Below are positions 7,983 through 35,122 of a stretch of DNA of 37,821 nucleotides, piece after piece; positions within the stretch are counted from its first letter, which is position 1, and the number at the start of each line of letters is the position of its first letter. Location: assembly GCA_016188045.1 (NCBI GenBank), contig JACPIM010000022.1, positions 1-37,821 on the forward strand, in the 5' to 3' direction. Below the pieces are notes generated by a model. That model saw nothing but the letters and a program-made list of their open reading frames with translations. It ran no database searches and was not told the DNA's origin. The translations under genes were made by a program, and so were the position numbers. The DNA is from Candidatus Woesearchaeota archaeon. GTDB taxonomy: Archaea > Nanobdellota > Nanobdellia > SCGC-AAA011-G17 > JACPIM01.

Positions 7983-8459
7983 TTATTTTTTAAAACTTAT
8001 AATTGAATCAAAATTTTTTTCTATTATTTTGGAATTAATAGCATTAATTTTAACATTTAGTAAATTAAAGGCAGAGGTAATATATGAAATATTCCATAAA
8101 GGAACATTAATTTTCTGTAATATTATTATTTTCTTGGATATAGCTTCTAATGGAACAACTTCTTTTTTTATTTTATCTACTATCTTAATGGCTTCTTCTA
8201 TTTTGGTTTTTATTTTAGTTAAATCCAATTCTTCTAAATCTTTCTGTTCTTTTTGGAATACTGCTGAATCCTCGTCTATCATTTTTATATTAACTCCTTC
8301 TATACCAAAAGAAGATATTTTTTTAGTTTTTTTAGAATAAAAATCAAATTGCCAGTTATTATCCATAAAGAAGCAACTTACAAGGTAAGAGTCGTCCTTG
8401 TTCCATTTTTTAAAAACTTCTGAGTTCTCTATTAATTTTAAATCCCCTTTAAGATTCAT
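7983..8459 (-). CDS. hypothetical protein, 158 aa
   Basis: I do not recognise a family with confidence. The protein is cytoplasmic by appearance. It has an N-terminal part with a SYLVSCFFM..NWQFDFYSK strand pair, a helical, Lys-rich middle (residues 70-105), and a C-terminal part (NVPLWNISYITSAFNLLNVKINAINSKII) that resembles the beta-alpha-beta end of PepSY-like or FMN-binding-like small domains. Its start overlaps the end of the next gene upstream by 11 bases, so it is the last gene of the thrS-led minus-strand run. Confidence 0.65.
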   Translation of the reverse strand: MNLKGDLKLIENSEVFKKWNKDDSYLVSCFFMDNNWQFDFYSKKTKKISSFGIEGVNIKMIDEDSAVFQKEQKDLEELDLTKIKTKIEEAIKIVDKIKKEVVPLEAISKKIIILQKINVPLWNISYITSAFNLLNVKINAINSKIIEKNFDSIISFKK

Positions 8460-8787
8460 AACTTTCTCCCAGAATTTCTTGTATTATACCTATAATTTTA
8501 CTGTAATACCTAAAGGGGTGTACAAAAAAACTTTTGCCTGCAATACCTTTATGTATAATTGGAACACAACACGAGTCACAACTTGTCCTATATTCTCGTG
8601 TTAATTCTAGCCATTCTCTATTAGCTCCTATTGTGAAGGCAGGCTCAAATAATCTGCCTTTAAATACAAACCCCAAAAGCTCTAATTCCTCATCAGTTGG
8701 AGCTATTTGTGTAATTAAGCCTTGGTATGAATAATTAACAAGACCAGTTATTTTTGTTTGTAAGCAAAGATTTTTCTCTCCCGACAT
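8449..8787 (-). CDS. hypothetical protein, 112 aa
   Basis: Family not recognised. A soluble protein with a CDSCC cluster (residues about 71-75) and Cys8, so metal or disulfide chemistry is possible. Its composition (Gly, Arg, Thr, Cys) is less Lys/Ile-rich than its neighbours. It lies 6 bases after the acetyltransferase gene and overlaps the next by 11 bases, which supports translation and membership in the thrS operon. Function unknown. Confidence 0.62.
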   Translation of the reverse strand: MSGEKNLCLQTKITGLVNYSYQGLITQIAPTDEELELLGFVFKGRLFEPAFTIGANREWLELTREYRTSCDSCCVPIIHKGIAGKSFFVHPFRYYSKIIGIIQEILGESYES

Positions 8788-13261: not shown

Positions 13262-13468
13262 ATTATCTTGAATAATTTTAATAGAATAAATATGATTATC
13301 AGGTAAATTATTAATCTGGTTATGTCATCAAATGAGAAATTGTATTTTGGTATAATACCTAAAATTCTTGTTTTTATTTAAACCTTTCTAAAATATTCTA
13401 CTACTTTTTAGTTGTAACTATAGAAAGATTTATAAATAACTACTTTATCCCTTTATTGGGTGTATAAA

Positions 13469-13831
13469 ATGGATGTCGATGAAGTATTAAGAGGATTAAA
13501 TGCTAGAGGGTATAATGTCTATTTCTTTGATAGATTGAATGGAGGGTGCTTAGGTAGTTTTGAAGATGCTGTTCAAAAAGGTTTAGCTGTGACCCAAGAA
13601 GCATTTTATGGTAACGGAATGAAAAGGGAGCAGGGAGTTATGCCATTTATTGTTGAACCGGGTCAGAGATTTTTTGTTCTTCCTTCTTGTGGAAATCCAA
13701 ATTCTCCAGAGGCTGTGCTAACTGAAATAAGAAGATTAAAACGCGAAGATAAAATTCCTAGGAATTTAGATTACCAACTATTTGAATTGGTTGGGGGCTT
13801 TGGTCCTGAGTATTTTCCACGTTTATTATAA
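13469..13831 (+). CDS. hypothetical protein, 120 aa
   Basis: Soluble protein of 120 residues with a Gly-, Arg- and Glu-rich composition unlike the Lys/Asn-rich envelope proteins nearby. It contains GYNVYFFDRLNGGCLGSFEDAV and a C-terminal LFELVGGFGPEYFP. Family not recognised. TTTATAAAT near 13430-13438 places transcription about 25 bases downstream, so ATG 13469 with a very short leader is chosen over GTG 13460. It stands alone with about 200 bases of non-coding DNA upstream. Confidence 0.7.
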   Translation: MDVDEVLRGLNARGYNVYFFDRLNGGCLGSFEDAVQKGLAVTQEAFYGNGMKREQGVMPFIVEPGQRFFVLPSCGNPNSPEAVLTEIRRLKREDKIPRNLDYQLFELVGGFGPEYFPRLL

Positions 13832-14425: not shown

Positions 14426-14779
14426 ATGAAACAAAATATTCAAGAGATAGAAGTATGGTATGTTTTACCAACTGTTAGAAAAGAAATAGTTAAAGGACTT
14501 TTAGAAAAAGGATTAAACCAAAACCAAGTTGCTAAAAAACTTTCATTGAGAAAGTCTACCATATCCCAATATGTAAACAAAAAAAGAGGAAAAGAAATTA
14601 AATTTAATGATGAAACATCAAAATCAATTAAAGAAGCAGTTAATAACATAATGGATGACAAAGACCCTTCTAAAGAGATTGCTAATATTTGTGAATTATT
14701 TGTTAAAAATAGAACAATATGTGAAATTCATAAAACATATGAAAATGTTCCAATAGACTGCGGGTTGTGTTTAAAATGA
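14426..14779 (+). CDS. XRE-type HTH regulator with four Cys (COG2522-like)
   Basis: 117 residues. EVWYVLPTVRKEIVKGL opens the protein as in archaeal COG2522-type regulators. A helix-turn-helix lies at about 30-52 (LNQNQVAKKLSLRKSTISQYV). The C-terminal part has exactly four cysteines: Cys89, Cys99, Cys112 and Cys115 in PIDCGLCLK. Four Cys with a final CxxC fit an Fe-S cluster or zinc site. The chosen ATG immediately follows the palindrome; a longer frame upstream would erase the promoter. It overlaps the next gene (ATGA) and heads the SUF operon, so it is a good candidate for an Fe-S-responsive repressor of that operon; the sensing role is inference. Confidence 0.82.
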   Translation: MKQNIQEIEVWYVLPTVRKEIVKGLLEKGLNQNQVAKKLSLRKSTISQYVNKKRGKEIKFNDETSKSIKEAVNNIMDDKDPSKEIANICELFVKNRTICEIHKTYENVPIDCGLCLK

Positions 14780-15114
14780 GCAGATTTTTTTCAGGAAAAG
14801 TGTCAGTAAAAGCATTTCAAATAGGTTGTCCTATTGAGTTTACACAAAAAGGAAGTAGGTACATACATTCTGCTGTTTTTGATGGCCTATTGGAAGCAAA
14901 TGGTGGATTAGAAGCACATTTTATATTCCCTAGATTCAAAGATTTTTGTCTTGGTATTTTTAGGCTACCTGTTGTGGTATTGGATAATGATATAGGATAT
15001 GTAGATTTCAGTAATGTTGCTTTTGGTGATGAATTACTTCCTTATAAACCAAGAAATAAATCAAAAGAGTATTACGATAGAATTTGTGAGATTCTTCTAG
15101 GCAGAAGGTTATAA
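14776..15114 (+). CDS. hypothetical protein between regulator and sufB
   Basis: 112 residues, family not recognised. It is soluble, with a beta-rich N-terminal half (FSGKVSVKAFQIGCPIEFTQ), a hydrophobic middle (FCLGIFRLPVVVLDNDIGYVDF) and a short helical end (KEYYDRICEILLG). The ATG at 14776 overlaps the regulator stop (ATGA), and its own stop overlaps the sufB ATG by one base, so it is translated as part of the SUF operon. A GTG 9 bases earlier is less likely. Its place suggests a role linked to cluster assembly or regulation; nothing in the sequence proves it. Confidence 0.68.
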   Translation: MSRFFSGKVSVKAFQIGCPIEFTQKGSRYIHSAVFDGLLEANGGLEAHFIFPRFKDFCLGIFRLPVVVLDNDIGYVDFSNVAFGDELLPYKPRNKSKEYYDRICEILLGRRL

Positions 15115-16518: not shown

Positions 16519-17619
16519 ATGCAGATTAGTTTACCAATGGATGGCCCAGATTGGTTTATCCAAAAAAGAAAAGAATGTTGGAATGAATTTGAAAAGATTA
16601 ATCTAGATTTAAATTTAAGATACGGCTTAAGTTTAAGATTTGACTTATCAGGACTAGACTTAAGCAGCGTAGAGTTAAAAAAAAGCAAAATTAAAGTTGA
16701 TACTGAACTTTTTAGTTTCGAAAAATTAGATGAATATGAAGATTTCTTTATGAATAATTTTATTCCAAATCAAGATAAGTTTACTTTATATCATAGCAGT
16801 TTATTAAATAATTTAGTGATAATTCATATAAAAGAAGACAAAGAAATTAATATCGATATAGAATTAAAAGATAAATACCATGCAGACCACATTTTAATTA
16901 TCGTAGAAAAAAACGTCAAAGCAAACATTATCGAAAATATAAAAGGAAATTGTATATTTAGAACGGGTGTTGTTGAGATCTATTTAAAAGAAAAGGCTAA
17001 ATTAAACTATTTTTTATTAGATGAAATAAAAAAAGGAAATAATTTTACTGTTTACAGGGGTTTAATAAATAAAGATAGTGAATTAACAATTGCTTCAAGT
17101 TTATTTTCCAATGGAATCAACAGAATGGAAAACAGCGTAGTAATGAACGGAGAAAATGCCAAATCTGAAATATATAATCTCTATTTTGGTAATGAAAATA
17201 GTAGATACGATATCTATAATGCAATAGTTCATGGAAATAAAAATTGTTTTAGCAATATGTTAAGCAAGGGCGCAGTAAAAGATAAAGCTCAAACTATACA
17301 CCGGGGTTTAATTGAAATCAAAAAAGGTTTTACAAGTAATAATGGTTACCAAAAAGAAGAAGCTCTAATTTTAAATGACGGCGCTAAAGCCAATGCTGTC
17401 CCAAACCTAAAAATTGATAATGATGATGTTAGATGCACTCATGGAGTAACTATAAGCCATTTGGATAATGAAAAGTTATTTTATTTAATGAGCCGCGGTT
17501 TAGATAAAAAAGAAGCAATAAAAAATTATCTTATAGGTTATTTTTATTCAGTTTTATGCAAATTTCCTGAAAAATTAAGAGAGATAATAATTGAAAGAAT
17601 ACATGAAAAACTAAAATGA
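16519..17619 (+). CDS. sufD: Fe-S assembly protein SufD
   Basis: 366 residues of the SufB/SufD beta-helix family. The C-terminal CTHGVTISHLDNEKLFYLMS carries the conserved histidine next to the SufBD cluster-assembly site. The N-terminal segment is divergent and Lys/Asn-rich, as is usual for SufD. It partners with SufB and SufC in the SufBC2D complex. It begins one base after the sufB stop and overlaps the next gene by 4 bases (ATGA). It is shorter than E. coli SufD (423 residues). Confidence 0.93.
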   Translation: MQISLPMDGPDWFIQKRKECWNEFEKINLDLNLRYGLSLRFDLSGLDLSSVELKKSKIKVDTELFSFEKLDEYEDFFMNNFIPNQDKFTLYHSSLLNNLVIIHIKEDKEINIDIELKDKYHADHILIIVEKNVKANIIENIKGNCIFRTGVVEIYLKEKAKLNYFLLDEIKKGNNFTVYRGLINKDSELTIASSLFSNGINRMENSVVMNGENAKSEIYNLYFGNENSRYDIYNAIVHGNKNCFSNMLSKGAVKDKAQTIHRGLIEIKKGFTSNNGYQKEEALILNDGAKANAVPNLKIDNDDVRCTHGVTISHLDNEKLFYLMSRGLDKKEAIKNYLIGYFYSVLCKFPEKLREIIIERIHEKLK

Positions 17620-18044
17620 AACTATTATTTGTGTGTATGGAAAATGTTGCAAGAAGCCAGATAGCTGAAGCATTATTTCCAGATCCAATTCATGAAGTAA
17701 TTAGTGCTGGAATAGATCCTAGAATAAATAAGAGTAGAACTCTCGTAGAGATAGGTGCTTTTGGTGTTATAGAGTGCATGGCTCAATTAGGCTATCATCT
17801 TGGTAACAGGATGGTGAAAGAATTAAGTCCTGGGATGGTTAGAAGAGCAGATAAGATTATTGTTATGGCTGATCGTATGTTCTGGCCACAATATCTTCGT
17901 CTAGCAAAAGAAAAAACAGAATATTGGCCAATACCAGATCCAAAGGGAGCTCCAGTGTGGAGATATGCGCAAATTAGGGATACTATCAAGCATCTGATAT
18001 ATGACGATGAAAAAGGCCTTGCTAGGAGGTTATCGATAAGATGA
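17616..18044 (+). CDS. low-molecular-weight phosphatase-like protein
   Basis: 142 residues of the LMW protein-tyrosine phosphatase/ArsC fold. The P-loop is CMENVAR (Cys7 to Arg13, CX5R) followed by SQIAEALF, and the general acid is in IPDPKG. The extra redox cysteines of pI258-type arsenate reductase (a CX6C-type pair after residue 80) are absent; the only other Cys is at 54, so phosphatase activity is more likely than arsenate reduction. It sits between sufD and sufS with 4-base overlaps on both sides, an unusual member of a SUF operon. The substrate is unknown. Confidence 0.85.
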   Translation: MKLLFVCMENVARSQIAEALFPDPIHEVISAGIDPRINKSRTLVEIGAFGVIECMAQLGYHLGNRMVKELSPGMVRRADKIIVMADRMFWPQYLRLAKEKTEYWPIPDPKGAPVWRYAQIRDTIKHLIYDDEKGLARRLSIR

Positions 18045-19606: not shown

Positions 19607-20359
19607 ATGCTAGAAATTAAAAATTTACACGTAAAAGTAGAAGAGAATGAAATACTAAAAGGGGTGAGTTTAACTGCCAAAGATAACGAAGTAACAGTTT
19701 TAATGGGACCCAATGGTTCTGGTAAGTCGACATTAGCAAATACGCTAATGGGACATCCTAAATATGAAATCACTAAAGGCGAAATCAAATTTAATAATAC
19801 CTTACTGAACGAATTAAACCCAGAAGAAAGAGCTAAATTGGGATTGTTTTTAAGTTTTCAATACCCACAAGAAATTTCCGGTGTTAATGTTAGAAACTTT
19901 TTAAGAGTGGCTTATAACTCAGTTAAGAAAACTAAATTAAGCCCCATTGAATTCAGAAAAATAATAGATGAAAAAATGGATTTGTTAAAAGTTGATAAAA
20001 GCTTTGCAGACAGATATTTGAATGAAGGTTTTTCTGGCGGCGAGAAAAAGAGGAGCGAAATTTTACAACTAGCAGTTTTAGAGCCCAAATTTGCAATATT
20101 AGATGAAACGGATTCTGGATTGGACATAGATTCTTTAAAAACTGTAGCTGAAGGAGTAAATAAAATAAAAGAAAAGATAAAAAACGGGGTATTAATAATA
20201 ACTCACTATAAAAGAATTTTAGATTACATTAAACCAGATAAAGTCTATATCATGAAAAACGGGAAAATTGTTGAAGAAGGTAGTATTGAGTTAGTTGAAA
20301 GATTGGAAAAAGAAGGATATGATTGGCTAGATGAAGTTAACGAACAACTGCAAGTTTAG
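19607..20359 (+). CDS. sufC: SUF ATPase SufC
   Basis: 250 residues, ABC ATPase of the SufC type: Walker A GPNGSGKST, Q-loop FQYPQEISGV (the SufC-specific PQEI/PxEI phrase), signature FSGGEKKRSEILQ, Walker B FAILDETDSGLD, and switch His in ITHYKRIL. ATP binding drives rearrangement of SufB-SufD. ATG 19607, just after the sufU stop, gives the standard MLEIKNLHV start. It is the last gene of the operon. Its last 23 bases overlap the end of a convergent lipoprotein gene. Confidence 0.96.
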   Translation: MLEIKNLHVKVEENEILKGVSLTAKDNEVTVLMGPNGSGKSTLANTLMGHPKYEITKGEIKFNNTLLNELNPEERAKLGLFLSFQYPQEISGVNVRNFLRVAYNSVKKTKLSPIEFRKIIDEKMDLLKVDKSFADRYLNEGFSGGEKKRSEILQLAVLEPKFAILDETDSGLDIDSLKTVAEGVNKIKEKIKNGVLIITHYKRILDYIKPDKVYIMKNGKIVEEGSIELVERLEKEGYDWLDEVNEQLQV

Positions 20360-20810
20360 AACCAAGAGGAAATTCTCTATCATTATTCTCTGGCTTTTCA
20401 TCTGCTTGATCATTAATTATTTCTGCCCTTTCTAAAAGATATTTTTGTCTTAATGAATCCAATTTTTTGACCTTTAATCTCGAAATCGGTTTTGGAACGT
20501 CTATCTGTCCCATTAATTCAGCTAGATGTGAACCAAGCAAGCGACAAAATTCAGATAAACCATATTCGTCTATTTTGCAACTTATTTCATTAGTGAATCC
20601 CAACCGGCACTCATAAGTCTTAGCTCTCGCTGTAAGGGTACATGGAAATCCAGCTTCAGTATCAACAGGAGGAGCTACAGTTTGTGATCCAGTAGTTGCC
20701 AATTTATCAATGGTTTCCTTTGAAGCAATAGTCTGATATTTTACACAACCACCTACTAAAGCCACCAGACCAACTAAAGTTACTGTTGTTCTAGAAAAAT
20801 AATTTAGCAC
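20337..20810 (-). CDS. predicted lipoprotein, convergent with sufC
   Basis: 157 residues with a short signal peptide and a lipobox, LVGLVALVGGCVKY (Cys22), so it is probably membrane-attached outside the cell. The rest is hydrophilic, with four more Cys (in FPCTLTARAKTYECRLGF, ISCKI and EFCRLLG) that could form disulfides, and a helical C-terminal half. Family not recognised. The 3' end overlaps sufC by 23 bases, so the two transcripts are antisense to each other there. Confidence 0.68.
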   Translation of the reverse strand: MLNYFSRTTVTLVGLVALVGGCVKYQTIASKETIDKLATTGSQTVAPPVDTEAGFPCTLTARAKTYECRLGFTNEISCKIDEYGLSEFCRLLGSHLAELMGQIDVPKPISRLKVKKLDSLRQKYLLERAEIINDQADEKPENNDREFPLGSKLAVVR

Positions 20811-21911: not shown

Positions 21912-22559
21912 ATGAACATTAAAAGATATCAATTGGATGATCATTTGAAAAGAGTTTTAAAACGACTAAAAGACCCTATACATCTTCATGATATTCCAGA
22001 GGCTAAAGAATGGTTGTATTTAAATGGATTCAGAGATCCAATTGTTACCCACGAAGCGTTTGACTTTTCTGCTTATGAAAAAACTAATGGGAGTAGAGTA
22101 TTGGGAATACCTTCAACTCCTGTATATGCGCCTTTCAGTGGTATAGTTCTTAGAGCTTATGCTGCTGAGTGTGCGTATGATATGTTGGGTGAACTAGACT
22201 ATGGGGCAGATTTAGAAATAATGGGAGAATTAGATGGTTGTATTATTACAGCGACAATGGCCCATGTTATCCCGGTAGTAGGGATAGGAAGGGTATTACA
22301 AGGTACTTTAGTTGGCAAAACCTATGAATCTCCTAACGATGATGAAGGAACACTTGGGCATTTGCATTTTGAATTAACAGCCACATATAGGGGCGTACAA
22401 TATGTAATCGATCCTTTTGAAGTTTTTTTACAGGGTAGAACTATAAAAAGAATTTTTTTACCTCATGAAGGTCCGTTTACTAAAGAAGAATTAAATACAG
22501 TTGGATTAGAAACTAAATTTTCAAAACGCCTCAATTATGGACAACGACCCAATAGATAA
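21912..22559 (+). CDS. LytM/M23-like domain protein without signal peptide
   Basis: 215 residues. The metal and catalytic pattern of LytM/M23 endopeptidases is complete: His47 and Asp51 (HEAFD, HxxxD), His118 (MAHV), and His150/His152 in GHLHFEL. The strand VYAPFSGIVLRAYA before the third motif is also typical. M23 enzymes usually cut peptidoglycan or other Gly-rich peptides outside the cell, but here no signal peptide or membrane helix is visible and archaea lack murein, so the role may be intracellular or non-hydrolytic. It has its own TATA box and a nearly leaderless start, between ttuA and the carrier gene. Confidence 0.78.
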   Translation: MNIKRYQLDDHLKRVLKRLKDPIHLHDIPEAKEWLYLNGFRDPIVTHEAFDFSAYEKTNGSRVLGIPSTPVYAPFSGIVLRAYAAECAYDMLGELDYGADLEIMGELDGCIITATMAHVIPVVGIGRVLQGTLVGKTYESPNDDEGTLGHLHFELTATYRGVQYVIDPFEVFLQGRTIKRIFLPHEGPFTKEELNTVGLETKFSKRLNYGQRPNR

Positions 22560-25889: not shown

Positions 25890-26267
25890 ATGGTTATGAG
25901 TATTACAAGTACATACGAGGCAAATGGAATCTCTATAGATGATTATTTTTTTGCAAGAGGAACGCATACTGATGCTAAACTTTTAGATGTTTGGGATATG
26001 AATTCTACTATGGCCGATTTAGGGGTTTCAGTTAGATTTGGTCATCTTTTAGATAGACAGGGGAAGATTGAGGAGAGTTTTTATAAGGATTTAGATGGTT
26101 ATTGTCCTGTGGGAGTTTATGTTCCAAAAAAAGTTTTAGATAGTTATCAAGTCAGGCCGAAATTTAGAATTAGTCTTCGTGATGCATTAGATAAACTTGA
26201 GATTCTAGTATTCAGAGAACGAGCAACTAGCAGCAAAAAGCCAAGAGTAACAGAACCCGCGTTTTAA
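25890..26267 (+). CDS. hypothetical protein, 125 aa
   Basis: Soluble protein with no recognised family. It contains GISIDDYFFARGTHTDAKLLDVWD, a central VRFGHLLDRQGKIEESF and an Arg/Lys-rich C terminus (ATSSKKPRVTEPAF) that is probably disordered. It is richer in Asp, Arg and Gly than its neighbours. TTTATATA at 25867-25874 is 23 bases before ATG 25890 and 29 before ATG 25896, so either start is possible with a leaderless transcript. It stands alone. Confidence 0.65.
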   Translation: MVMSITSTYEANGISIDDYFFARGTHTDAKLLDVWDMNSTMADLGVSVRFGHLLDRQGKIEESFYKDLDGYCPVGVYVPKKVLDSYQVRPKFRISLRDALDKLEILVFRERATSSKKPRVTEPAF

Positions 26268-28582: not shown

Positions 28583-29347
28583 ATGGACTTAAAAGATAAA
28601 GTTGCTATTGTTACTGGAGCCAGTTCAGGTATTGGTTATGAAATAGCAAGAGCTTTAGCAGAAAAAAGAGCCTCTGTTATATTAACTGCACGAAGAGGGG
28701 ATCTATTAGATGAACATGCTAGAATGTTTAGGGAACAATACCAAGCTGATGCAAGAGCAATTGTTTCTGACTTATTTGATGAGCCATCTATTGATAGATT
28801 AGTTAAACAAGTTAGAGGATTGTATAATGGAGTTGATATTTTAGTAAATGCTGCTGGCCAATTTATTGTTGCTAGTGAGCCTTTAAATTTAAGAGACCCT
28901 ACGACCAATTTAGCAGATTTTAAGAGGGTAATGGAAGTTAATTTTTATGGTCCTCTAAGATTAATCTATAAATTATTGCCATATATGAGAAAAGATGGCG
29001 TAGTGGTGAATATATCATCTGATGCTGATAGAAAAGCTTATCCTGGCCAACCAGGGTATCATGTTTCTAAAGCAGCTTTAAGCCAGCTAACTAGAGCTTT
29101 GGCTGCTGAAAATTGCGGAACAGATTTTTACGCTTTAAGCCCGGGGAATGTTAATACTGAAATGTTAAGAAGAACTGTAGAAGGCAACCAAGAAATAAGG
29201 AAAGCAATTGAAAGAAAAATGAAACTTAATGAATTTTATGATAAGATATTACAACCAGGAGATATTTCTAGTAAAGTCTTGGAGCTAGTAGCTAAAAGAC
29301 CGAGATTAGAAGATCCTGTGATATTAATGCCATCGTATGAATTTTAA
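28583..29347 (+). CDS. SDR-family oxidoreductase
   Basis: 254 residues, classical short-chain dehydrogenase/reductase. The nucleotide-binding motif is TGASSGIG (11-18), then ILVNAAG, catalytic Ser (NISSD, 144-148), and Tyr159/Lys163 in YHVSK. The Arg in TARRG (36-40) after strand 2 suggests NADP(H). It is followed one base later by queD and then folE, so its substrate may be a pterin, as for sepiapterin or dihydromonapterin reductases, but general SDR sequence does not show this. It has a leaderless-type start. Confidence 0.88.
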   Translation: MDLKDKVAIVTGASSGIGYEIARALAEKRASVILTARRGDLLDEHARMFREQYQADARAIVSDLFDEPSIDRLVKQVRGLYNGVDILVNAAGQFIVASEPLNLRDPTTNLADFKRVMEVNFYGPLRLIYKLLPYMRKDGVVVNISSDADRKAYPGQPGYHVSKAALSQLTRALAAENCGTDFYALSPGNVNTEMLRRTVEGNQEIRKAIERKMKLNEFYDKILQPGDISSKVLELVAKRPRLEDPVILMPSYEF

Positions 29348-29690: not shown

Positions 29691-30296
29691 ATGATAGAAA
29701 AAAGAAAAAATTTTTGTTTAAATAAAGAAGAATATATTAAAACAGTAAGTGAAAAAATAAAAGAATTACTAGAAGCCATTGGTGAAGATCCTAATAGGGG
29801 AGGATTAAAAGAAACCCCTTTAAGAGTAGCTAGGATGTACAGAGAAATATTAAAAGGATATTGCGAAGAAGAAAAACCAAAGATAACTGTTTTTGAAAAC
29901 AAAGAAAATTACAGCGAGATGATAATTGACGAGGGTTATTTTTACTCTTTATGCGAACACCACACCTTGCCATTTTTTGGAAAGGTCTTTGTTGCCTACA
30001 TACCAGATAAAAAATTAATTGGAATATCAAAACTAGCAAGAATAGTTGATCATTATGCCGCAAGATTGCAAGTTCAAGAAAGATTAACTAAACAAATAGC
30101 AGAATATTTGGATAATGTATTAAAACCTAAAGGAGTAGCTGTTTTAATGAGTGCAAGGCATTTATGCAGGGAATTAAGAGGAGTAAAAAAGTTTGGTGCA
30201 ATAATGACCACTTCTGAATTATTAGGACAGTTCAGAGAAGATTCTAAAACCAGAAACGAATTTATGAATTTAGTTCAAAATAAGTTAAATAGTTAA
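29691..30296 (+). CDS. folE: GTP cyclohydrolase I
   Basis: 201 residues, bacterial/eukaryotic type FolE. Zinc ligands are Cys88, His91 and Cys159 (SLCEHH and SARHLCRELRG), and the GISKLARIVDHYAARLQVQERL helix region is diagnostic (split here as GISKLARIVDHYA). It converts GTP to dihydroneopterin triphosphate. Many archaea use MptA or FolE2-type enzymes instead, so a FolE of this kind is a sign of a bacterial-like pathway. It starts directly after the queD stop. Its own stop shares TTAA with a convergent Cys-rich gene. Confidence 0.95.
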   Translation: MIEKRKNFCLNKEEYIKTVSEKIKELLEAIGEDPNRGGLKETPLRVARMYREILKGYCEEEKPKITVFENKENYSEMIIDEGYFYSLCEHHTLPFFGKVFVAYIPDKKLIGISKLARIVDHYAARLQVQERLTKQIAEYLDNVLKPKGVAVLMSARHLCRELRGVKKFGAIMTTSELLGQFREDSKTRNEFMNLVQNKLNS

Positions 30297-30433
30297 ATTT
30301 CCCTAGAACACCAACAGATATTCTCTACCATCTTTATAGCATTCTTAGAATTAATCATATTTTTTCCGCAACATTTCTTCAATTTGTCCGCTCTATGCCT
30401 GCATTCTTCACAAATATAACTTTCTTCCTGCAT
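30293..30433 (-). CDS. 46-residue Cys-rich protein
   Basis: A short gene ending in the TTAA shared with folE. It encodes 46 residues with six cysteines: Cys8/Cys11 in CEEC, Cys21/Cys22 in KCCGK and Cys40/Cys42 in CWC. A small zinc-binding protein is likely. ATATATAA lies about 30 bases before the ATG. Family not recognised. Support is the Cys pattern, promoter and exact stop overlap; expression is unproven. Confidence 0.55.
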   Translation of the reverse strand: MQEESYICEECRHRADKLKKCCGKNMINSKNAIKMVENICWCSREI

Positions 30434-30508: not shown

Positions 30509-31306
30509 TCATGTTCTTTTTTTAGGCTTTGGTACAAAAGCAGGAGGCACTACCGAGAGACGGGTTATTCTATCTTTTCCTTTATATTTTGAGTAATCTA
30601 CTGCTCTAACTGCCCCCTTCCTTAATTGCAATGATTCCATCCCTATTTTATGTTGTGCTATCCCACCACTTGCAGTTATTCCTATCTTCCCCCCTTCTTC
30701 ATAAGGGTGAGAAATTTCAATTTTCCTAACTTTATCTAAAAAACGATTTGCTACAGTTTCTGCAGTTAATTCATCACAGCCATACAATAAAACTCCAAAT
30801 TCTTCTCCTTGCCCAACTCTTGCTTGTTCTACATATTCAATATTAAGCGATTCTTCTCTCACTAAATGGTCCAAAATAGTTTGGCTTCTTCTATCCGTTC
30901 TATGTCTATTGTTTTCTGGTGTTTCCTCTTGTCTGGATTTTCTAGTTTTTGTTCTAAAACAACCCCTCATCAATTCTGTAAATTTTGCTATGGCCTCGTC
31001 GCCTTTTATTTTTGTATAAGCCTCATTAAAATCATGAAAGCCATCTAAATCCATTAATAAATAAGACAATGGAACACTACTTGCTTCTGCCTTTATCATA
31101 GCTAATGGAAGAATAGTATTCTCAAAATAATCCTTAGCAAGTAATCCCGTCTGTTTATCCAAAACTTGTGGTACATATTGTGAAAAAAGATCTGGATGAA
31201 TATCAAGTACTCTTATTAGGCCATCCCTAAAAACAGGGGGATTTGCCAAAAACATTTCTACAACGGTTTCAGGAGTTACAATATATTGTTGTGCACTATC
31301 TACCAT
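30509..31306 (-). CDS. GGDEF-domain protein (diguanylate cyclase-like)
   Basis: 265 residues. After a 45-residue N-terminal part the GGDEF layout is clear: DKQTGLLAKDYFE, YLLMDLDGFHDFNEAY with metal Asp86 and substrate Asn94, then GQGEEF (165-170) in place of GGDEF, ITASGGIAQHK, and AVRAVDYSKYKGKDRI. Two changes are odd: one extra residue in the signature loop and an insertion of about 42 charged residues (118-160) before it. It has no membrane or sensor domain. GGDEF proteins are rare in archaea. Whether it makes c-di-GMP or only binds nucleotide is open. Confidence 0.82.
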   Translation of the reverse strand: MVDSAQQYIVTPETVVEMFLANPPVFRDGLIRVLDIHPDLFSQYVPQVLDKQTGLLAKDYFENTILPLAMIKAEASSVPLSYLLMDLDGFHDFNEAYTKIKGDEAIAKFTELMRGCFRTKTRKSRQEETPENNRHRTDRRSQTILDHLVREESLNIEYVEQARVGQGEEFGVLLYGCDELTAETVANRFLDKVRKIEISHPYEEGGKIGITASGGIAQHKIGMESLQLRKGAVRAVDYSKYKGKDRITRLSVVPPAFVPKPKKRT

Positions 31307-31368
31307 AAAATAAGAACAGCAAGAAGCATTTATAAACCTTTCTTTTTGTTACTATATTAAAGTAGTAA

Positions 31369-34711: not shown

Positions 34712-35122
34712 TTAAACAAAAAATCTCTGGTCACAAAACTCTTTCTTTTCTTCTGAAGCAAAATATCTTTGAGGATTTTCTCTTAAGTCTTCAATTATTC
34801 TTTTTGCTTGTTCTGGTGTGGCTCTGAATGGTGCTACAATTCCACCAACAAACAGAGAATATTCCACTCCGAAGTCCCTTAGCAACATTTTTACAAGTTC
34901 TCCTGGACCTTGCTCTGTTCTAAGAGGAAATATCACTGCTTCACTTCCAGCTTTAAAGAACTCTTCATAAATCCATTCTGAGAGAGTATTTAACTTAGAA
35001 TAAACATGAACTGGATGGTAAACTAATCCATTTTTATCCTTCTTTCTTACCTTCTTTGTAGGATTTATCAATCCAATATGTAAGACTTTTGCTTTATAAT
35101 CCGGTGTTAAGTCAATTGCCAT
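34712..35122 (-). CDS. hypothetical protein, 136 aa
   Basis: Soluble alpha/beta-looking protein of 136 residues. Family not recognised. Features: AKVLHIGLINPTKKVRKKDKNG at the start, SEAVIFPLRTEQGPGELVKMLL, FVGGIVAPFRATPEQAKRII and a C-terminal Arg/Glu helix. Its composition is less Lys/Asn-rich than that of the neighbours. It is transcribed away from the CARF regulator, with about 148 bases between the two starts. Confidence 0.68.
   Translation of the reverse strand: MAIDLTPDYKAKVLHIGLINPTKKVRKKDKNGLVYHPVHVYSKLNTLSEWIYEEFFKAGSEAVIFPLRTEQGPGELVKMLLRDFGVEYSLFVGGIVAPFRATPEQAKRIIEDLRENPQRYFASEEKKEFCDQRFFV

Follow-up and report, generated by a model that had tools for sequence, protein, structure and literature searches.

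A 37,821-nucleotide stretch of DNA assigned to a Candidatus Woesearchaeota archaeon (contig JACPIM010000022.1; this whole stretch is referred to here as the window) carries a gene for a protein, P0001, that resembles the GGDEF family, bacterial enzyme domains that produce the signal c-di-GMP, but has an altered signature. The locus raises the question of whether such a protein is a working diguanylate cyclase, a relative that has lost or exchanged this activity, or a bacterial gene that is foreign to the archaeon. GGDEF genes on archaeal contigs have been suspected of being contamination (PMC5847659; PMC10086821); in 2018 one archaeal GGDEF only was recognised, others being regarded as perhaps contamination (PMC5847659), and in 2021 more than 300 archaeal GGDEF hits were reported, many of them from Asgard and DPANN archaea (PMC8646023). 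A preliminary description of the window held GGDEF domains to be nearly absent from archaea, and proposed that P0001 might make a different cyclic nucleotide, act as a receptor, or be a recent bacterial import. For P0001 we have computed the fold, the residues at functional positions, the promoter signature and the content of the genome.

Results

P0001 is a diverged GGDEF-family protein

The GGDEF gene was found exactly where the preliminary description had placed it (Table 1), and its product matches both PF00990 (E=5.9e-12; 46.1 bits against a curated cut-off of 23.8) and TIGR00254 of NCBIfam (5.4e-12; 45.7 bits against a cut-off of 37.4). Sequence matches from Pfam, NCBIfam and the PDB agree on this domain, which they cover mostly in two blocks with an unmatched stretch in between. 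In an AlphaFold2 model, for which 74 related domains served as input, pLDDT values are 92-98 over both blocks, dropping to 43-55 across much of the intervening stretch, where the charged insert lies. The best PDB matches of this model found with Foldseek are GGDEF domains only (3ign, DgcR, DgcB, WspR, PleD and DosC). No recognised domain other than GGDEF is present; the N-terminal 48 residues, for which helices are predicted at residues 12-21, 27-36 and 38-48 (pLDDT 43-80), contain no known sensor domain in a Pfam search, in agreement with the earlier view that the protein lacks a sensor and stands alone. We conclude that P0001 is a genuine but unusually diverged member of the GGDEF family.

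Table 1. Positions of P0001, its parts and other features in the window, with related proteins elsewhere
Feature	Position	Strand	Remarks
GGDEF gene P0001	30509..31306	minus	265-codon open frame from ATG; 265-aa single-domain protein; PF00990, fold prediction
N-terminal 48 residues	31163..31306	minus	no Pfam match; helices predicted at lower confidence
GGDEF domain, residues 49-247	30566..31162	minus	Pfam, NCBIfam and PDB sequence matches over 49-121 and 162-247
Asp86 codon	31049..31051	minus	metal ligand (PleD D327); invariant in 75 aligned domains
His91 codon	31034..31036	minus	PleD K332 position; all 74 comparison domains have Lys here
Asn94 codon	31025..31027	minus	guanine ligand (PleD N335); invariant in 75 aligned domains
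Asp103 codon	30998..31000	minus	guanine-selectivity position (PleD D344); invariant in 75 aligned domains
Charged insert, about residues 119-156	30839..30952	minus	between helix alpha2 and signature hairpin; contains DRR; splits I-site region
Signature GQGEEF, residues 165-170	30797..30814	minus	one extra residue
Archaeal TATA box TTTATAAAT	31328..31336	minus	starts exactly 30 bases ahead of the P0001 ATG; spacing common to other window genes
Small Cys-rich ORF, 46 aa, MQEESYICEECRHRADKLKKCCGKNM...	30293-30433	minus	close downstream of P0001 and converging on folE; without Pfam match
K/I/N-poor gene class	8449-8787, 13460-13831, 14767-15114, 17616-18044, 20337-20810		
K/I/N-poor gene class, continued	21912-22559, 25890-26267, 28583-29347, 30509-31306, 34712-35122		
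Insert-bearing GGDEFs L036, L037, L038, L039			genomes G038, G027, G010, G055

The nucleotide pocket is retained and the signature hairpin is altered

We compared the residues and spacings of P0001 with those of 74 bacterial-type GGDEF domains, assigning roles in PleD numbering after PMC7288161 and PMC12943098. P0001 keeps eight of the nine core catalytic positions, and the residues retained are D50, T53, D86, D88, F90, N94, G102, D103, R163, E168, E169, F170, S213, G215 and K240. The metal ligands D327 and E370 (and E371) of PleD correspond to D86, E168 and E169, and the guanine ligands N335 and D344 to N94 and D103, so that Asp86 and Asn94 align with the metal and guanine positions as had been claimed. 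PleD D327, N335 and D344 are those reported to be essential for GGDEF catalysis (PMC7288161). The claim that all framework motifs are present thus stands for the metal and guanine ligands, but not for the domain as a whole: P0001 departs from residues that are 96-100% constant elsewhere at six positions (K91H, D95E, G98T, H99K, D233V and Y237D), and neither the ADxxLY stretch nor the GH of YGH survives. Moreover, only one of the three phosphate or transition-state residues of PleD is matched exactly, K332, K442 and R446 being H91, K240 and K244 in P0001, with Lys at the R446 position.

The reported extra residue in the signature was confirmed. The segment from R163 to F170, RVGQGEEF, is equivalent to RxGGEEF with one residue added and spans eight residues as against seven in 74/74 comparison domains, none of which has an extra residue in the hairpin; P0001 lacks a hairpin of normal length with a (G/S/A)G(D/E)EF signature. 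The insertion ahead of the signature, previously given as 42 residues in addition to this one, is shorter: Asp86 and Glu169 are 84 residues apart in P0001, the commonest value being 45 (58 of 75 rows), and the excess of 39 residues comprises 38 ahead of the signature hairpin and 1 within it. Nor does P0001 have an RxxD I-site motif shortly ahead of the signature, R118 being followed by T-K-T and then by the insert.

How the hairpin is read affects what might be expected of the enzyme. For the alternative reading G-Q-GEEF we know of no tested precedent. If the signature is read as QGEEF, with Gln at the first position, inactivity would be predicted from a scan of that position in VCA0965, in which activity was kept only with G, A, H or M (PMC3974145). 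Signature length is a defining feature and differs in P0001, which for this reason cannot be counted as an established working diguanylate cyclase.

The gene appears native to an archaeal contig

The motif TTTAWA clusters at -31 to -28 ahead of 13 of the 42 window genes, 9 of them at -30, against a background of about 0.3 per position. TATA boxes fixed at -30 indicate an archaeal promoter pattern in which leaderless transcripts are common, and the box ahead of P0001 predicts a leaderless transcript for this gene as well. We note that the -30 spacing may also serve as an aid for correcting start codons. The GC3 of P0001 (0.21) equals that of the neighbouring genes, and a protein from a genome of the same order (L003) is identical to one (L121) in a MAG named Nanoarchaeum sp. 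Judged on these sequence features and on the neighbouring genes, the contig is archaeal, in line with the preliminary description, which spoke of an archaeal-type genome, and the P0001 gene is native to it; the -30 TATA box, the GC3 value and the link of the order to the Nanoarchaeum MAG together make it unlikely that P0001 lies on a recent bacterial fragment.

The K+I+N content of P0001 is 15.8%, as against about 20-40% in most window genes. Approximately ten other window genes are likewise poor in K, I and N, and most genes of this class are without a Pfam match; they are richer in R and in GC (0.32-0.38), have the GC3 of the genome and in several cases carry a -30 TATA box. The 46-aa Cys-rich ORF downstream of P0001 is a possible zinc ribbon.

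P0001 has no close relative in the collections searched

DNA-pattern scans of genomes and viral contigs, an alignment query, and searches of phages and plasmids found no close relative or orthologue of P0001. The alignment query retrieved solely generic GGDEFs, with about 24-30% identity to P0001 over the domain, and the phage and plasmid collections likewise gave generic GGDEF matches alone. A phylogeny against bacterial GGDEFs, which the preliminary description had proposed, was obtained for 143 domains but left P0001 unplaced, on a terminal branch of 1.64 as compared with a median of 0.49, and it therefore identifies neither a donor among bacteria nor a sister among archaea. About 12 changes between archaeal rows and the rest are required on this tree, and several archaeal clades do not extend beyond a single family; this is consistent with a number of old acquisitions that were then inherited. 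P0001 scores 88.9 bits against a broad bacterial GGDEF profile and at most 59.1 bits against archaeal subfamily profiles, the profiles differing in depth.

Two groups of archaeal proteins resemble P0001 in part. Four proteins from a different family of the same order (L036-L039; family f9, genus g11) also stand alone, are about 265 aa long and have 31-39 extra residues at the same place ahead of the signature, with a DRR or ERR motif. Their profile, however, gives P0001 only 31 bits, they are separate from it in the tree, K332 is kept in three of the four, and in two of the four the hairpin is longer by two residues (MYSGGDEF). Kinship with P0001 is thus unsupported by tree and profile score, and the resemblance of the inserts may be parallel. 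In archaeal family f60 the GGDEF proteins, about 200 aa long and with the profile that scores P0001 highest among the archaeal subfamilies (59 bits), likewise stand alone with a short helical N-terminus, but they have the full catalytic set and the signature RFGGEEF, and lack the insert. Synteny through FolE was unusable, the neighbouring folE being absent from the two other genomes of the family. The order also contains short, degenerate proteins of GGDEF-like sequence (L041, L044, L045, L046, L035, L050, L043 and L052), with altered hairpins that include GESADEF, GRAADEF, GHGCKADEF and YHLHGEEF.

GGDEF domains are common in the lineage

The notion that archaea hardly ever have GGDEF domains proved false for this lineage. 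GGDEF domains occur in 45 of the 103 genomes of the order and in 149 of 371 phylum genomes sampled (118 of the 243 high-quality ones), including the single-contig genomes G106, G288 and G371. All nine core catalytic positions are intact in 52 of 66 GGDEF rows from the order and phylum, a set in which a few rows are fragments or near-duplicates.

Across these 103 genomes of the order neither EAL nor PilZ was found (0/103 for each), control genomes having given the expected protein-family matches. HD_5/HD-GYP domains are present in 20 of the 103, at least three of them with an HHExxDGSGYP motif; HD-GYP and GGDEF occur together in 8 genomes where about 9 would be expected by chance, and HD-GYP is absent from the window's genome, so it was rejected as the missing hydrolase. 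MshEN and, in a search run without a positive control, a c-di-GMP-I riboswitch were each detected in 1 of the 103 genomes, in both cases G042; these matches lie on contigs C343 and C362 of a 1.8-Mb bin of 380 contigs with 5% contamination, and are probably foreign, bacterial contamination. We found no published census of partners for archaeal GGDEFs in the literature searched.

The window's own genome (1.02 Mb, 92.55% complete) encodes P0001 as the sole GGDEF protein found. The preliminary description had proposed to look for PilZ or other c-di-GMP effectors; the search covered PilZ, MshEN and the c-di-GMP-I riboswitch together with the hydrolase domains EAL and HD-GYP, and detected none of these five in this genome. 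No c-di-AMP cyclase was found in this genome; elsewhere in the order a diadenylate cyclase (DAC) domain occurs in 44 of the 103 genomes, none of them in the window's family. P0001 was also considered as a component of a defence system and rejected, matching no PADLOC anti-phage defence model up to E=0.1.

Discussion

We put at about an even chance that P0001 is an old, fast-evolving GGDEF that binds Mg-GTP, is a poor or non-cyclising enzyme and has a regulatory role. With its pocket kept, its signature damaged and its allosteric site lost, we infer a GTP-binding, scarcely cyclising GGDEF. Of these properties, binding of GTP with a metal is most likely, since the fold and the Mg-GTP pocket (D86, E168/E169, N94, D103 and K240) appear to be retained. 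The lengthened hairpin, the change of Lys332 to His and the lost GH and ADxxLY stretches would leave little or no cyclisation, and interruption of the RxxD inhibition site by a disordered 38-residue insert would remove the allosteric site. P0001 might then act alone, from its own archaeal promoter, as a GTP-binding regulator that works through protein contacts, with the charged insert as its likely partner-binding segment; the loss or weakness of synthesis, the regulatory role and the role of the insert are all put forward here as deductions. The long end branch favours this explanation, as do the searches of the genome, in which no further known c-di-GMP component turned up, and the degenerate stand-alone GGDEFs of related genomes (GESADEF, GRAADEF, YHLHGEEF). 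Counting against it, the equivalents of PleD D327, N335 and D344 and the acids of the EEF are all present, and a three-residue hairpin turn could be accommodated.

Like the canonical PF00990 cyclases PleD, WspR and DosC, P0001 has the metal and guanine ligands, the EEF acids and a Lys442 equivalent, and its modelled fold gives target-normalised TM-scores of up to 0.91; unlike them, it has the longer hairpin, the insert, His and Lys at the K332 and R446 positions, a broken I-site and no sensor domain. The GTP-sensing GGDEF-EAL of Caulobacter (cited in PMC7288161) and the ATPase YybT, a degenerate GGDEF with another nucleotide activity (cited in PMC3974145), share with P0001 an altered signature and a partly kept nucleotide pocket, but these domains lie within larger proteins that have a phosphodiesterase domain, whereas P0001 stands alone.

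A serious contender, albeit one with the chances somewhat against it when judged from sequence, is that P0001 is an active diguanylate cyclase served by receptors of a novel type. The hairpin would still position E168 and E169, two molecules would pair and make c-di-GMP, and the break in RxxD would abolish product inhibition. Retention of eight core positions, with every residue reported as essential among them, would be expected of such an enzyme, and relatives with canonical GGDEFs, in an order without EAL or PilZ, would likewise need novel receptors and hydrolases. It is less easily reconciled with a hairpin length shared by none of the comparison domains, with the substitutions at K332 and R446 and the two lost stretches, or with a genome in which neither a phosphodiesterase nor a known receptor family was found. 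Given the canonical GGDEFs of this order, however, a missing known effector is no proof of a missing signal. We also entertain, more tentatively, the possibility that cyclic dinucleotides made by GGDEF domains are used in DPANN archaea, where their receptors and hydrolases would not be of bacterial type; P0001 would then derive from that system, its signature loop and allosteric site reshaped to serve another mode of regulation or another output.

The three proposals of the preliminary description fare worse. That P0001 is a receptor for c-di-GMP, with the dinucleotide bound either by the I-site or by a degenerate active site, has parallels in the degenerate GGDEF receptors PopA, PelD and CdgA, as cited in PMC3974145, but is very unlikely with the RxxD interrupted and with no second GGDEF found in the genome, at its stated completeness, to make the ligand. 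Synthesis of a different cyclic nucleotide (3',3'-cGAMP or c-di-AMP, for example) might suit the altered signature and the changes at several pocket-lining positions; Ser at the PleD D344 position nevertheless marks the Hypr cGAMP-making enzymes (PMC7288161, PMC6456294), P0001 has the GTP-selecting Asp103 there and keeps Asn94 too, and the proposal is highly improbable. Least probable of all is a recent bacterial import, or a mis-assembly that joined bacterial sequence to the contig, for although the bacterial profile gives the higher score (with the difference in depth noted above) and the protein contains few K, I and N residues, the promoter and GC3 match those of the neighbours, the flanking genes show the same promoter pattern, the genome, viral, phage and plasmid collections yield nothing beyond generic domain similarity (identity over the full domain never exceeding about 30%), and the branch is long and unplaced.

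P0001 is a diverged single example, and its value lies mainly as an entry point to the question of c-di-GMP in archaea. c-di-GMP is regarded as a bacterial signal, yet GGDEF domains are common, and form lineage-specific clades, within one DPANN phylum. This poses a testable question: is c-di-GMP made by these archaea and, if so, what reads and destroys it? That cyclase domains should be so widespread in a DPANN phylum, with neither EAL nor PilZ in the order that was examined, is a more interesting result than P0001 itself.
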